Below the pieces are notes generated by a model. It was not told where the DNA came from, made no database searches, and saw nothing but the letters and a program-made list of their open reading frames with translations. Shown here one piece after another: positions 5,531-54,648 of a stretch of DNA of 64,000 bases (positions are counted from its first letter, which is position 1; each line of letters starts with the position of its first letter). Origin of the DNA: Amycolatopsis aidingensis (GTDB lineage: Bacteria; Actinomycetota; Actinomycetes; Mycobacteriales; Pseudonocardiaceae); contig NZ_CP076538.1 of assembly GCF_018885265.1 (NCBI RefSeq), positions 992,001 to 1,056,000 of the forward strand. The letters run 5' to 3'. A program made the position numbers and the translations under genes.

Positions 5531-5549
5531 GAAGGTTAGCCTTGCCTAA
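5531..5549 (+). promoter_or_regulatory. iron box (DmdR/IdeR-type operator)
   Basis: GAAGGTTAGCCTTGCCTAA matches the actinobacterial iron-box consensus TTAGGTTAGSCTAACCTAA at 15 of 19 positions. It lies 25 bp upstream of the siderophore-interacting-protein start at 5575, so that gene is expected to be repressed when iron is plentiful. Confidence 0.75.
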
Positions 5550-5574: not shown

Positions 5575-6453
5575 ATGACCTCGACCGCGCGGAACACCGG
5601 ATCGGCACTTGCCTATCGCGCCGTCCGGGTGACCGGGGTGCGCACGCTGACACCGCATATGGTCCGGATCAGCTTCACCGGCTGCGAACCGGATGGGCTG
5701 CGCGCGCTGCCGCCCGCCGCCCCGGACCAGTACGTCAAGGTGTTCTTCCCGCTGCCGAGCCAGCAGCGGCCGCAGCTGCCGCCGCCGGTGGTCGAGGACG
5801 CGATGTCCTGGTACCGCACCTACCTCGCGATGCCGGACGAGGTGCGCCCGCCGATGCGCACGTACACCATCCGCGCCTACCGGCAGGCCGAGCGGGAGAT
5901 CGACATCGACTTCGCGCTGCACCCCGACGGTGGTCCCGCGTCGACCTGGGCGGCATCCGCGCGGCCGGGGGATGAGGTGGCGATTCTCGGTCCACACGGT
6001 CTGTACCAGGTGCCCGAGGCCACCGAATGGCAACTGCTGGTCGGCGACGAGCCGGCCCTGCCCGCGATCGGCGCGATCCTGGAGGCCCTGCCAGAGGGGG
6101 CGCGGGCGCTGGCCTACGTTGAGGTCGAGGGTCCGGCGGAGGAGCAGCAGCTGTCCAGCCCTGGCAGCGTGGAGGTCAGCTGGATCCACCGGCGGGAGGC
6201 GGCGCACGGCCGGCGACTGCTGGCCGCCGTGCGCGCGGCCGAGTTCCCCGCGGGTGTCCCGTACGCCTGGATCGCCGGCGAGGCGGGCCTGGTCAAACTG
6301 GCCCGCAGGCATCTGGTGCGCGAGCGGGGGTTCGACAAGCGGGCGATCACCTTCACCGGTTACTGGCGGCTCGGCCGGACCGAAGAGGACACCGGCAGGG
6401 AGAACATGCGCAAACTGGACGCGGGTGAACCCCTCGACGACCCCACCGACTGA
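5575..6453 (+). CDS. siderophore-interacting protein (ferric-siderophore reductase, SIP/ViuB family)
   Basis: This 292-residue flavoprotein has an FAD-binding beta barrel with the family motif RTYTIRAY (about residues 98-105) and DIDFALH, then the NAD(P)H-binding half starting at LLVGDEPALPAIGAIL and ending YAWIAGEAGLVKLARRHLVRE...TGYWRLG. The family reduces ferric siderophores in the cytoplasm to release Fe2+. GGGGGTAGGG precedes the ATG as a ribosome-binding site, and an iron box lies directly upstream. No siderophore synthesis or uptake genes are nearby, so it acts as a solitary iron-regulated unit. Its stop is followed 7 bp later by repeat element copy 1. Confidence 0.92.
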   Translation: MTSTARNTGSALAYRAVRVTGVRTLTPHMVRISFTGCEPDGLRALPPAAPDQYVKVFFPLPSQQRPQLPPPVVEDAMSWYRTYLAMPDEVRPPMRTYTIRAYRQAEREIDIDFALHPDGGPASTWAASARPGDEVAILGPHGLYQVPEATEWQLLVGDEPALPAIGAILEALPEGARALAYVEVEGPAEEQQLSSPGSVEVSWIHRREAAHGRRLLAAVRAAEFPAGVPYAWIAGEAGLVKLARRHLVRERGFDKRAITFTGYWRLGRTEEDTGRENMRKLDAGEPLDDPTD

Positions 6454-52302: not shown

Positions 52303-52406
52303 ACCACCGGCAACCGGGGCCGATGGTGGGTAAGGACCCGGCATCCGGGACCAGTAGATATATAGCCACATTGGCATGTGTCACCCGACAGGCGGTACGG
52401 GGAGAC

Positions 52407-52431
52407 GGTAAGGCTTACCTACTTTGGTAGG
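52407..52431. promoter_or_regulatory. overlapping palindromes upstream of the Cys-rich peptide
   Basis: GGTAAG-G-CTTACC (52407-52419) is a perfect palindrome resembling the core of an iron box (13 of 19 matches when extended to 52404-52422). CCTAC-TTTG-GTAGG (52418-52431) overlaps its right end. The site lies 38-62 bp before the peptide ATG, in the expected promoter position. A metal-responsive repressor site is plausible; binding is not shown. Confidence 0.5.
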
Positions 52432-52468
52432 GCCAGGTCGTCCGCCGACGAAAGGGTGGTGGTCCGAG

Positions 52469-52534
52469 ATGGGTGGGTGTAGCTGCTGCGCCTCGTGCAG
52501 TGGTCCCGGTTGCGGCTGCTGCGGTAGCTGCTGA
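52469..52534 (+). CDS. 21-residue cysteine-rich peptide (eight Cys)
   Basis: ATG at 52469 to TGA at 52532-52534 encodes a peptide starting MGGCSCCASC and ending GCGCCGSC. Cys are at positions 3, 5, 6, 9, 14, 16, 17 and 20, and the other residues are almost all Gly and Ser. GGGTGGTGG upstream may serve as a ribosome-binding site. A palindromic control region precedes it and a perfect 18-bp stem follows 11 nt after the stop, so it appears to be a complete single-gene transcription unit. Possible roles are metal binding (metallothionein-like), a Cys-responsive leader, or a precursor of a modified peptide. I know no matching family. Confidence 0.6.
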   Translation: MGGCSCCASCSGPGCGCCGSC

Positions 52535-52545
52535 CCAACGGAGTG

Positions 52546-52586
52546 CGGCCCCGTGCCGTCGCCCGAGCGGCGACGGCACGGGGCCG
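52546..52586 (+). terminator. strong hairpin terminator after the Cys-rich peptide
   Basis: CGGCCCCGTGCCGTCGCC (52546-52563) pairs perfectly with GGCGACGGCACGGGGCCG (52569-52586) around a CGAGC loop: an 18-bp GC stem without a T-run, the common actinobacterial form. It ends 48 bp before the next ATG. Confidence 0.85.
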
Positions 52587-52634: not shown

Positions 52635-53507
52635 ATGGATCACGAAGAAGCCGGGCAGCTGGCCTACCGCTGCCACCGGGTGCTCGAGCCCCTGCACGCG
52701 ATGATCTACTTCGCCCCGGAGGCCGAGGACCGGCTCACCGCGGCGGGCCTGCGGCCCGGCCGGATGTGCTACTTCGCCAGCCGGTCCGCGCCGATGGGCG
52801 CGGTCGGCCCGGGCACGGTGACCGCCACCTTCTTCAACTTCAACCCGGTACTGGTCGCGGAGCACATCCCCGAGGCGTGGAAGCTGGCCGCGCCGGAGCG
52901 GGTGCTAGAGGCCAGGCTGGCCGCCGCGGACGCCGCGCTGCGCAGGCTGCTGGGTGCGGACACGGTGGCCTCCGAGGAGGTGGCCGAGGCGGCCGACCTC
53001 GCGCGGCAGGCCGCCGAGCTGTGCGTCCCCGAGGGGCGCCCGCTGTATGCCGCGCATGCCGACCTGGACTGGCCGGACGAGCCGCACCTCGTGCTCTGGC
53101 ACGCCGCCTCGCTGCTGCGCGAGTTCCGCGGTGACGGGCATATCGCCGCGCTGGTGGGTGCCGGGCTGAACGGGCTCACCGCGCTGGTGACGCACACCGC
53201 CACCGGCAAGGGCTTCCTCGAGTCGGTCGCCAAGCGCCTGCGCGGCTGGTCCGACGACCAGTGGGCCGCCACCGTCGACTACCTGCGCGGCGAGGGCCTG
53301 CTCGACGCGGACGGGAACCTCACCGAGCAGGGCAACCAGTTGCGCGAGCGGATGGAGGCGGACACCAACGCCGCGGCCGCCGCCCCCTTCGCCACGCTCG
53401 GCGCGCAGAAGGCGGAACGGTTGCGCGAGCTCGGCCGCTCGCTGAGCAGGCAGATCATCGCCGAGGGCGCCTTCCCGCAGGAAGGCATCTTCGCCAGCTC
53501 CCGCTAG
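52635..53507 (+). CDS. SCO6745-family protein
   Basis: A 290-residue soluble protein of a conserved actinobacterial family (SCO6745 type, unknown function, HTH-like segments). Landmarks are CHRVLEPLHAMIYFAPEAEDRLTAAGL near the start, MCYFASRSAPMGAVGPGTVTATFFNFNP, DEPHLVLWHAASLLREFRGDGHIAALV and GWSDDQWAATVDYLRGEGLLDADGNLTEQG at the end. An IS630 element has inserted exactly in its stop codon: TA (target) plus the G of the element now form TAG, and the right-hand flank shows the original codon was also TAG. The protein is therefore unchanged. Confidence 0.85.
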   Translation: MDHEEAGQLAYRCHRVLEPLHAMIYFAPEAEDRLTAAGLRPGRMCYFASRSAPMGAVGPGTVTATFFNFNPVLVAEHIPEAWKLAAPERVLEARLAAADAALRRLLGADTVASEEVAEAADLARQAAELCVPEGRPLYAAHADLDWPDEPHLVLWHAASLLREFRGDGHIAALVGAGLNGLTALVTHTATGKGFLESVAKRLRGWSDDQWAATVDYLRGEGLLDADGNLTEQGNQLRERMEADTNAAAAAPFATLGAQKAERLRELGRSLSRQIIAEGAFPQEGIFASSR

Positions 53508-54645
53508 TGTCCTGCGCCTGAATTGGCTTGTGTAAATGTATGGTTCGGGGATGGCGCGGATCGGTCGGCCGAAGAAGGCTGAGTTGACGGTGAGCGAGGC
53601 TGATCGTCGGGAGTTGGTGCGTGGGGCGCGGGCGGCGACGTCGACGCAGGCGTATGCGTTGCGGTGTCGGATTGTGCTGGCGTGTGCGGAGCCGGGTGCG
53701 TTCAATAAGGATGTGGCTGCCGCTGTGGGGGTGTCGGTGCCGACGGTGGCCAAGTGGCGGGGTCGGTTCATCGAGCATGGCTTGGCCGGGTTGGCTGACG
53801 AGCCGCGGCCGGGGCGTCCGCCGTCGATCCTGCTGGACCAGGTCGAGGAAGTGGTTGCCTTGACTCTGGAACAGACGCCGCGCAACGCCACGCATTGGTC
53901 GCGGGCTTCGATGGCCGAGCGCACCGGGCTGTCGCGCTCGACTGTGGGCAGGATCTGGCGGCGTTTCGACCTCAAGCCCCATGTGGTGGACGGGTTCAAG
54001 CTCTCGACGGATCCGCTGTTCGTGCGCAAAGTCGTGGATGTTGTCGGGCTGTATCACAATCCGCCCGAGCGGGCGGTGGTGCTGTGTGTCGACGAGAAGT
54101 CCCAGATGCAGGCGTTGGATCGGTCCCAGCCGGTCCTGCCGATGATGCCGGGCATGCCGGAGCGACGCACCCACGACTACGCTCGCCATGGCACGACCAG
54201 CCTGTTCGCGGCGTTCAACATCGCCGATGGCACGGTCATCACCGAGTTGCATCGCCGCCACCGCGCCACCGAGTTCAAGAAGTTCCTCACCAGCATCGAC
54301 AAGGCGGTGCCCGCCGACCTCGACGTGCACCTGGTCTGCGACAACCTGGCCACCCACAAAACACCGATCGTCAACGAGTGGCTGGCACGGCATCCGCGCT
54401 TCCATGTGCATTTCACCCCGACCGGGTCGTCGTGGGTCAACCAAGTGGAGCGCTGGTTCGGCTACCTCACCGACCAGCTCACCCGCCGCGGAGCCCACAC
54501 CAGTGTGGCGGGATTGGAGAAGGACGTCCGCGACTGGATCCAGCGGTGGAACGCCGACCCCAAACCCTTCGTCTGGCGCAAGACCGCCGAAGAGATCCTC
54601 GACTCCCTCGCCCGATATCTACAACGCATTTCAGGCGCAGGACAC
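53507..54645 (+). mobile_element. IS630-family insertion sequence, complete
   Basis: 1139 bp bounded by perfect 16-bp inverted ends, GTGTCCTGCGCCTGAA (53507-53522) and its complement (54630-54645), flanked on both sides by the TA dinucleotide (53505-53506, 54646-54647) that IS630/Tc1 elements duplicate. It contains one intact transposase gene. The transposase stop codon uses the flanking TA and the first chromosomal base. Confidence 0.93.
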
Positions 54646-54648
54646 TAG
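53536..54648 (+). CDS. IS630 family transposase
   Basis: A 370-residue intact transposase. The N-terminal HTH region contains FNKDVAAAVGVSVPTVAKWRGRFIEHGLAGLADEPRPGRPP, a second HTH RASMAERTGLSRSTVGRIWRRF, and the DDE domain VVLCVDEKSQMQAL (first Asp), VHLVCDNLATHKTPIV (second Asp) and SSWVNQVERWFGYLT (Glu). The frame runs through the right inverted end; its last codons are GGA CAC, and its stop TAG consists of target TA plus flanking G, so termination depends on the insertion site. A second in-frame ATG lies at 53551. GC at third positions is lower than in its neighbours near the start, fitting recent arrival. Confidence 0.95.
   Translation: MYGSGMARIGRPKKAELTVSEADRRELVRGARAATSTQAYALRCRIVLACAEPGAFNKDVAAAVGVSVPTVAKWRGRFIEHGLAGLADEPRPGRPPSILLDQVEEVVALTLEQTPRNATHWSRASMAERTGLSRSTVGRIWRRFDLKPHVVDGFKLSTDPLFVRKVVDVVGLYHNPPERAVVLCVDEKSQMQALDRSQPVLPMMPGMPERRTHDYARHGTTSLFAAFNIADGTVITELHRRHRATEFKKFLTSIDKAVPADLDVHLVCDNLATHKTPIVNEWLARHPRFHVHFTPTGSSWVNQVERWFGYLTDQLTRRGAHTSVAGLEKDVRDWIQRWNADPKPFVWRKTAEEILDSLARYLQRISGAGH

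Follow-up and report, generated by a model that had tools for sequence, protein, structure and literature searches.

Can a reading frame of 66 nucleotides be a gene in its own right, and if so, what would its product do for the cell? The question is raised by an open reading frame in the window, as we call the whole 64,000-nt stretch of the Amycolatopsis aidingensis genome that was analysed. By direct reading, the frame runs on the plus strand from the ATG at 52469 to the TGA at 52534 (52469..52534) and encodes MGGCSCCASCSGPGCGCCGSC, a peptide of 21 residues and about 2 kDa. Eight of the residues are cysteines and none are aromatic; the layout is CxCCxxC, an SGPG linker, and CxCCxxC again. A first-pass annotation of the same DNA had described this frame with eight cysteines set between glycines and serines. 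The frame and the cysteine count held, but the position numbers given were each one too low, as the cysteines stand at 4, 6, 7, 10, 15, 17, 18, and 21 (Met = 1). A likely ribosome binding site, GAAAGGG, was read at 52450..52456 on the same strand.

We searched 60 relatives with the window peptide as the query and then built profiles from the matches. The first of these searches yielded clear relatives, among them a second copy carried by the window's own genome (L183, MGGCGCGCSNCTGPGCGCCGGCS, minus strand, C1:7269870-7269938). In a sample of the genus, 78 of 80 genomes had profile matches at an E value of ≤1, 75 of them at ≤0.001. We then turned to the Pseudonocardiaceae as a whole, a family known for its antibiotic producers, where matches at ≤0.05 were found in 216 of 297 genomes. 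With a longer profile and a threshold of ≤0.001, 209 of the 297 genomes matched, from 42 of the 46 genera, leaving 88 genomes without a match, whereas the same profile rows read backwards matched only 2 of the 297. The loci retrieved within the family by profile, namely the best-scoring matches, all contained the core CxxCxGxxCGCCxxC.

Outside the family, the signal faded. In a sample of the order (298 genomes), 53 genomes matched at ≤0.01, 43 of them in the family and 10 outside it. The 10 outside matches were all weak (E ≥ 0.001), some 2.4 being expected at ≤0.01 over about 244 genomes, and the core expression was absent from all of them. In a sample of the phylum (346 genomes), the peptide's own genome alone scored well, and the seven matches in other genomes lacked the core. 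Among named genomes, 504 stretches fitted a pattern and 2 passed confirmation (Amycolatopsis arida and Lentzea indica, both Pseudonocardiaceae). No plasmid was matched by one 34-residue relative, which was used there as the query in place of the window peptide.

A second line of evidence came from a subgroup with the peptide MHGCCSKCTGQGCGCCGNCN. Pairwise comparison of twelve distinct DNA versions, picked by their 5' leader alone from loci that had entered through the profile searches (best matches first), gave 156 differences; every one fell at a third codon position, and 0 changed the peptide. To judge from this pattern, selection acts on the protein in this subgroup and keeps the whole peptide, not the cysteine codons alone. 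A chance reading frame is ruled out by these third-position-only differences together with the excess of matches for the true over the reversed profile. On sequence grounds, then, the 21-residue frame is a real gene that recurs across the Pseudonocardiaceae. The first-pass annotation had judged it to be compact, free-standing, and unlikely by chance, and all three descriptions stand.

Such a gene has left little trace in the resources that we searched. At E ≤ 10, neither Pfam nor NCBIfam had a family that matched the window peptide, and by sequence it belongs to none of their metallothionein families; 0 chains were matched among PDB sequences. Its missing entry in the searched domain libraries, despite the number of genomes involved, is presumably explained by a length too short to be called. 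No description of the peptide family was found in the literature searched, which was screened mostly at the level of titles.

To compare the loci, we collected 97 that fitted the cysteine-core expression and had at least 260 nt of upstream DNA, dropping identical 80-nt repeats. The core was the selection criterion, and the invariance of its cysteines among these loci is therefore true by construction. Within the core plus the three residues preceding it, 61 loci had eight cysteines and 36 had seven. The front of the core read CxCC in 59 loci, which therefore have two CxCCxxC units, and HGCC in 34. The N-terminal extension ranged from absent to about 15 residues and was unrelated between subgroups while the core stayed the same. 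Leaderless forms are the window peptide, L005, L006, and the MHGCC subgroup.

The upstream DNA is shared as well. In an alignment of 40 thinned promoters from the family, a two-part element was found, which in the window (plus strand) consists of TCACCC at 52381..52386 (family form TCNCYC) and GCGGTA at 52392..52397 (family form [AG][CT]GGT[AG]), the latter 22 nt before a predicted -10 hexamer, TACTTT, at 52420..52425 (TANNNT; spacing as in the family loci). The expression [AG][CT]GGT[AG]-N21/22-[TC]A[CGT]NNT was present upstream in 80 of the 97 loci and absent from 17, compared with 23 of 1,940 shuffles; its strictest form, with TCNCNC, was present in 33 of the 97 versus 3 of 1,940. Both expressions were derived from the same loci on which they were counted. 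In the 40 rows, the first G of [AG][CT]GGT[AG] was invariant. The invariance there of the GGT and of the -10's A and T follows from the use of this expression in choosing the rows. The three C columns of TCNCYC, at least 90% conserved, were not imposed by the choice of rows.

When a model of this promoter was run against the own genome, the promoters of the two peptide genes ranked first (E = 4.9e-4 and 5.5e-4), a ranking that is partly built in because the 40 training rows included the promoter of the paralogue and a near relative of the window's promoter. A site that resembled coding DNA followed (E = 0.0037); 150 of 15,257 candidates were scored. The second copy, L183, carries a GTGGTG variant of the shared element. 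In a limited search, no other convincing user of the element was found. The peptide family supplies a recurring promoter signature to which no regulator has been assigned.

In the window, a second control element lies over the spacer and the -10 of this promoter. The sequence GACGGTAAGGCTTACCTAC (52404..52422, plus strand) differs at 3 positions from TWAGGTWAGSCTWACCTWA, the 19-bp iron-box consensus for which the available part of PMC9505556 uses a limit of 5 mismatches (compared also with an excerpt of PMC1382209). We read it as a predicted operator of the DtxR/IdeR/DmdR type, in agreement with the iron-box-like palindrome noted at first pass. The box reaches into the predicted -10 and contains the palindrome GGTAAGGCTTACC (52407-52419). 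A second palindrome, CCTACTTTGGTAGG (52418..52431), overlaps the first, and the pair lies 38 to 62 bp upstream of the gene, where it had been placed before. Of the four other box-bearing loci, L182 alone retains the second palindrome, which is probably incidental.

The box stands out against the background of the genome. The shuffled expectation for sites with at most 3 mismatches in the window was 0.00, and the 7.66-Mb genome had 17 such sites, compared with 1 for the backward pattern. Fifteen of the 17 were inspected, including the peptide's own. Nine of the 14 others adjoin genes with a clear link to iron: SIP has three sites, a pair of which is flanked by the same genes and spaced 59 bp apart; Peripla_BP_2 and FecCD have two each, and FhuF_C and ferritin one each. 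An isochorismatase gene and a PALP gene, with one site each, fit siderophore synthesis. Less telling were a site at a DUF2470 gene, one at a gene that reads as ferredoxin reductase-like, and one with no called gene nearby. The PALP-domain gene (L237, box at C1:783498-783516) resembles what we take to be a diaminopropionate-type siderophore enzyme. The window itself has another box, with 2 mismatches, at 5531-5549, just upstream of a siderophore-interacting-protein gene (5575-6453), and this serves as an internal positive control. Members of the IdeR/DmdR/DtxR regulon and the peptide gene are alike in having a box within the mismatch limit taken from PMC9505556 (available part), here over a predicted promoter, but the genes seen at the other inspected boxes of this genome encode enzymes, transporters, and a ferritin. 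A 21-residue cysteine peptide as a member of this regulon was not found in the literature searched.

Is iron the signal for the whole family? A box within 5 mismatches was found in 5 of the 97 loci (shuffles, 13 of 1,940 within 5 and 0 within 4) and in none of the other 92; the second copy in the own genome, L183, was among those without. Iron is therefore not a family-wide signal, and we rejected family-wide iron control. The five box-bearing promoters are closely alike, which is the sense in which we speak of a group (one of the loci, L167, has a different genus label), and the box persists where the bases around it vary. From its rarity, the likeness of these promoters, and its persistence against the flanks, iron control seems to have been added locally to a promoter that already existed.

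Downstream, a perfect 18-bp stem with a 5-nt loop (52546..52586, plus strand; arms 52546-52563 and 52569-52586) starts 11 nt past the stop codon, as described at first pass, and is a predicted terminator. The segment 52440-52600 folds better than all of 200 shuffles (z = -3.98). A 3' stem scoring at least 12 was present in 41 of the 97 loci, compared with 5 of 970 shuffles, and was not found in the other 56. The stem had been expected to be conserved in relatives; it does recur, but its sequence differs from locus to locus. Thus, in most loci the typical unit appears to be the peptide gene with its own promoter and, often, a terminator. We infer that the unit is transcribed and translated.

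A strong 3' stem at the end of a predicted transcript of roughly 160 nt could also belong to a small regulatory RNA in which the reading frame is incidental or has a second function. The Rfam F6 sRNA model does match the stem, but at 35.6 bits it stays below the cut-off of 46 bits, and it matches the minus strand as well (28.5 bits). We rejected F6 for these two reasons. With stem sequences that differ between relatives and a frame that varies at third codon positions only in the MHGCCSKCTGQGCGCCGNCN subgroup, a regulatory RNA seems a very improbable description of the locus.

The position of the hairpin led to another proposal, that the peptide is a cysteine-responsive leader whose translation controls the hairpin and the SCO6745-family gene beyond it. 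That gene does start 48 bp past the stem, at 52635 (Pfam HTH_67, E = 9.1e-105; NCBIfam SCO6745_fam_HTH, E = 7e-106), and the cysteine clusters are near the hairpin. In the available part of PMC4633059, cysteine-rich upstream frames are proposed as attenuators in mycobacteria; like the peptide gene, these are tiny actinobacterial frames missed by annotation. An SCO6745-family gene with a P450 gene downstream is common to the window, L167, and L182 (SCO6745 in the window by reading), so that L167 and L182 keep the frame together with its surrounding genes. Directly after the SCO6745-family gene, the window has a DDE_3-type transposase gene (53536-54648).

We examined the neighbours of 41 loci with 32 genus labels, using a simple home-made gene caller that missed the window's own SCO6745-family gene. 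The next called gene was convergent in 31 of the 41 loci, although it is codirectional in the window, and mostly there is therefore no adjoining codirectional gene to control. The mycobacterial upstream frames, by comparison, precede cysteine-metabolic or hypothetical genes, as far as the available part of PMC4633059 describes them. The leader proposal was rejected on the convergent neighbours and the differing stems, and it also sits poorly with the conservation of the whole peptide, not the cysteine codons alone, in the MHGCCSKCTGQGCGCCGNCN subgroup. A sensing role of this kind is now scarcely tenable. The most frequent neighbour cluster, an alpha/beta-hydrolase, occurred in 17 of the 41 loci (directly downstream and convergent in 16 of them), and no cluster exceeded that count. 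No single neighbourhood goes with the peptide gene, which in most loci does not head an operon. In L145, L149, L152, L157, and others, the peptide gene is often near msrB (SelR domain, 9 of 41 loci), with genes that read as DNA-ligase type and a convergent alpha/beta-hydrolase gene; this neighbourhood is possibly the ancestral locus.

The neighbourhoods also bear on the idea that the frame encodes a precursor from which a ribosomally synthesized and modified peptide is made, such as a secreted metallophore, with its cysteine core cross-linked by enzymes encoded elsewhere and its production switched on by iron starvation. A C-terminal cysteine core conserved over many genera behind a variable N-terminal extension would suit a precursor, as would an iron box common to siderophore-related genes in the window's genome. 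Against it stand the lack of any neighbour cluster beyond 17 of 41 loci (domain scans covered a few neighbours) and the lack of a conserved leader, as the window and several subgroups are leaderless and the extensions differ from one subgroup to the next. We consider such a precursor unlikely.

We instead favor a stand-alone micro-gene for a cytosolic metal-thiolate peptide, induced by iron starvation in the window's group, and give this reading a probability of roughly 0.6. The peptide resembles metallothioneins, which are short and cysteine-dense, with CxC, CC, and CxxC spacings and few or no aromatics; two CxCCxxC units without aromatics suggest a metal-thiolate cluster. The composition fits metal binding, as first proposed from the frame alone, and the case rests on composition and spacing because there is no Pfam, NCBIfam, or PDB-sequence match. 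The two units could wrap Cu(I), Zn(II), or Fe(II), in the manner of a minimal metallothionein. In most loci, the gene would be expressed from its own promoter, with the 3' stem, where present, acting as terminator. In the window and the four loci with like promoters, the DtxR/IdeR-type box over the spacer and the -10 has the layout of a repressor site, and the peptide should therefore appear in iron starvation: iron-loaded repressor would silence the gene, and starvation would release it together with the siderophore genes. The peptide might then buffer other thiophilic metals entering via the opened uptake systems or hold what little iron is left. Metal binding, the metals named, and the iron response are what we infer.

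The same cysteine pattern fits free-thiol, Fe-S, or modified-peptide roles. The cysteine units could hold an iron-sulfur cluster or act as a disulfide switch, and the conserved core and the iron box in the window's promoter are both compatible with this. There is, however, no Pfam match of any kind, and to our knowledge CxCCxxC is not a usual spacing for Fe-S ligands. An Fe-S or thiol-redox peptide is in our view an improbable product of this gene.

More tentatively, and with somewhat less than even confidence, we propose a new family of metal-thiolate micropeptides (20 to 34 residues with 7 or 8 cysteines) in most of the sampled Pseudonocardiaceae, within which the window's group was captured by the iron regulon to give a 21-residue metallothionein induced by iron starvation. 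If metal buffering is its role, the peptide would rank with the smallest genetically encoded metallothioneins known, and in the box-bearing strains one could ask directly why cells short of iron should produce such a thiolate peptide. The Neurospora-type copper metallothionein, a eukaryotic protein, is of similar size (about 25 residues, Gly/Ser/Cys-rich, 7 cysteines); it has CxC repeats, whereas the window peptide has CxCCxxC, and we claim no homology.

The nearest described analogue in function would be MymT, the mycobacterial copper metallothionein of 4.9 kDa, with a predicted capacity of up to six Cu(I) (PMC7558416, available part). Compared by description, both are small, cysteine-rich actinobacterial frames that had gone unannotated, and metal-thiolate candidates, but the window peptide has less than half the mass and no copper-type operator was identified. 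The SmtA-type bacterial metallothioneins are likewise small cysteine-rich metal binders, with a zinc-finger fold in SmtA homologues according to the same part of PMC7558416; the window 21-mer would be too short for that fold and has no Pfam match.

One subgroup of the family (L179, L178, L018, and relatives) departs from the leaderless form of the window peptide. By eye, its cysteine core is preceded by a basic, amphipathic-looking N terminus, M[ILF][KE]RL....LRH, which might bind membranes.
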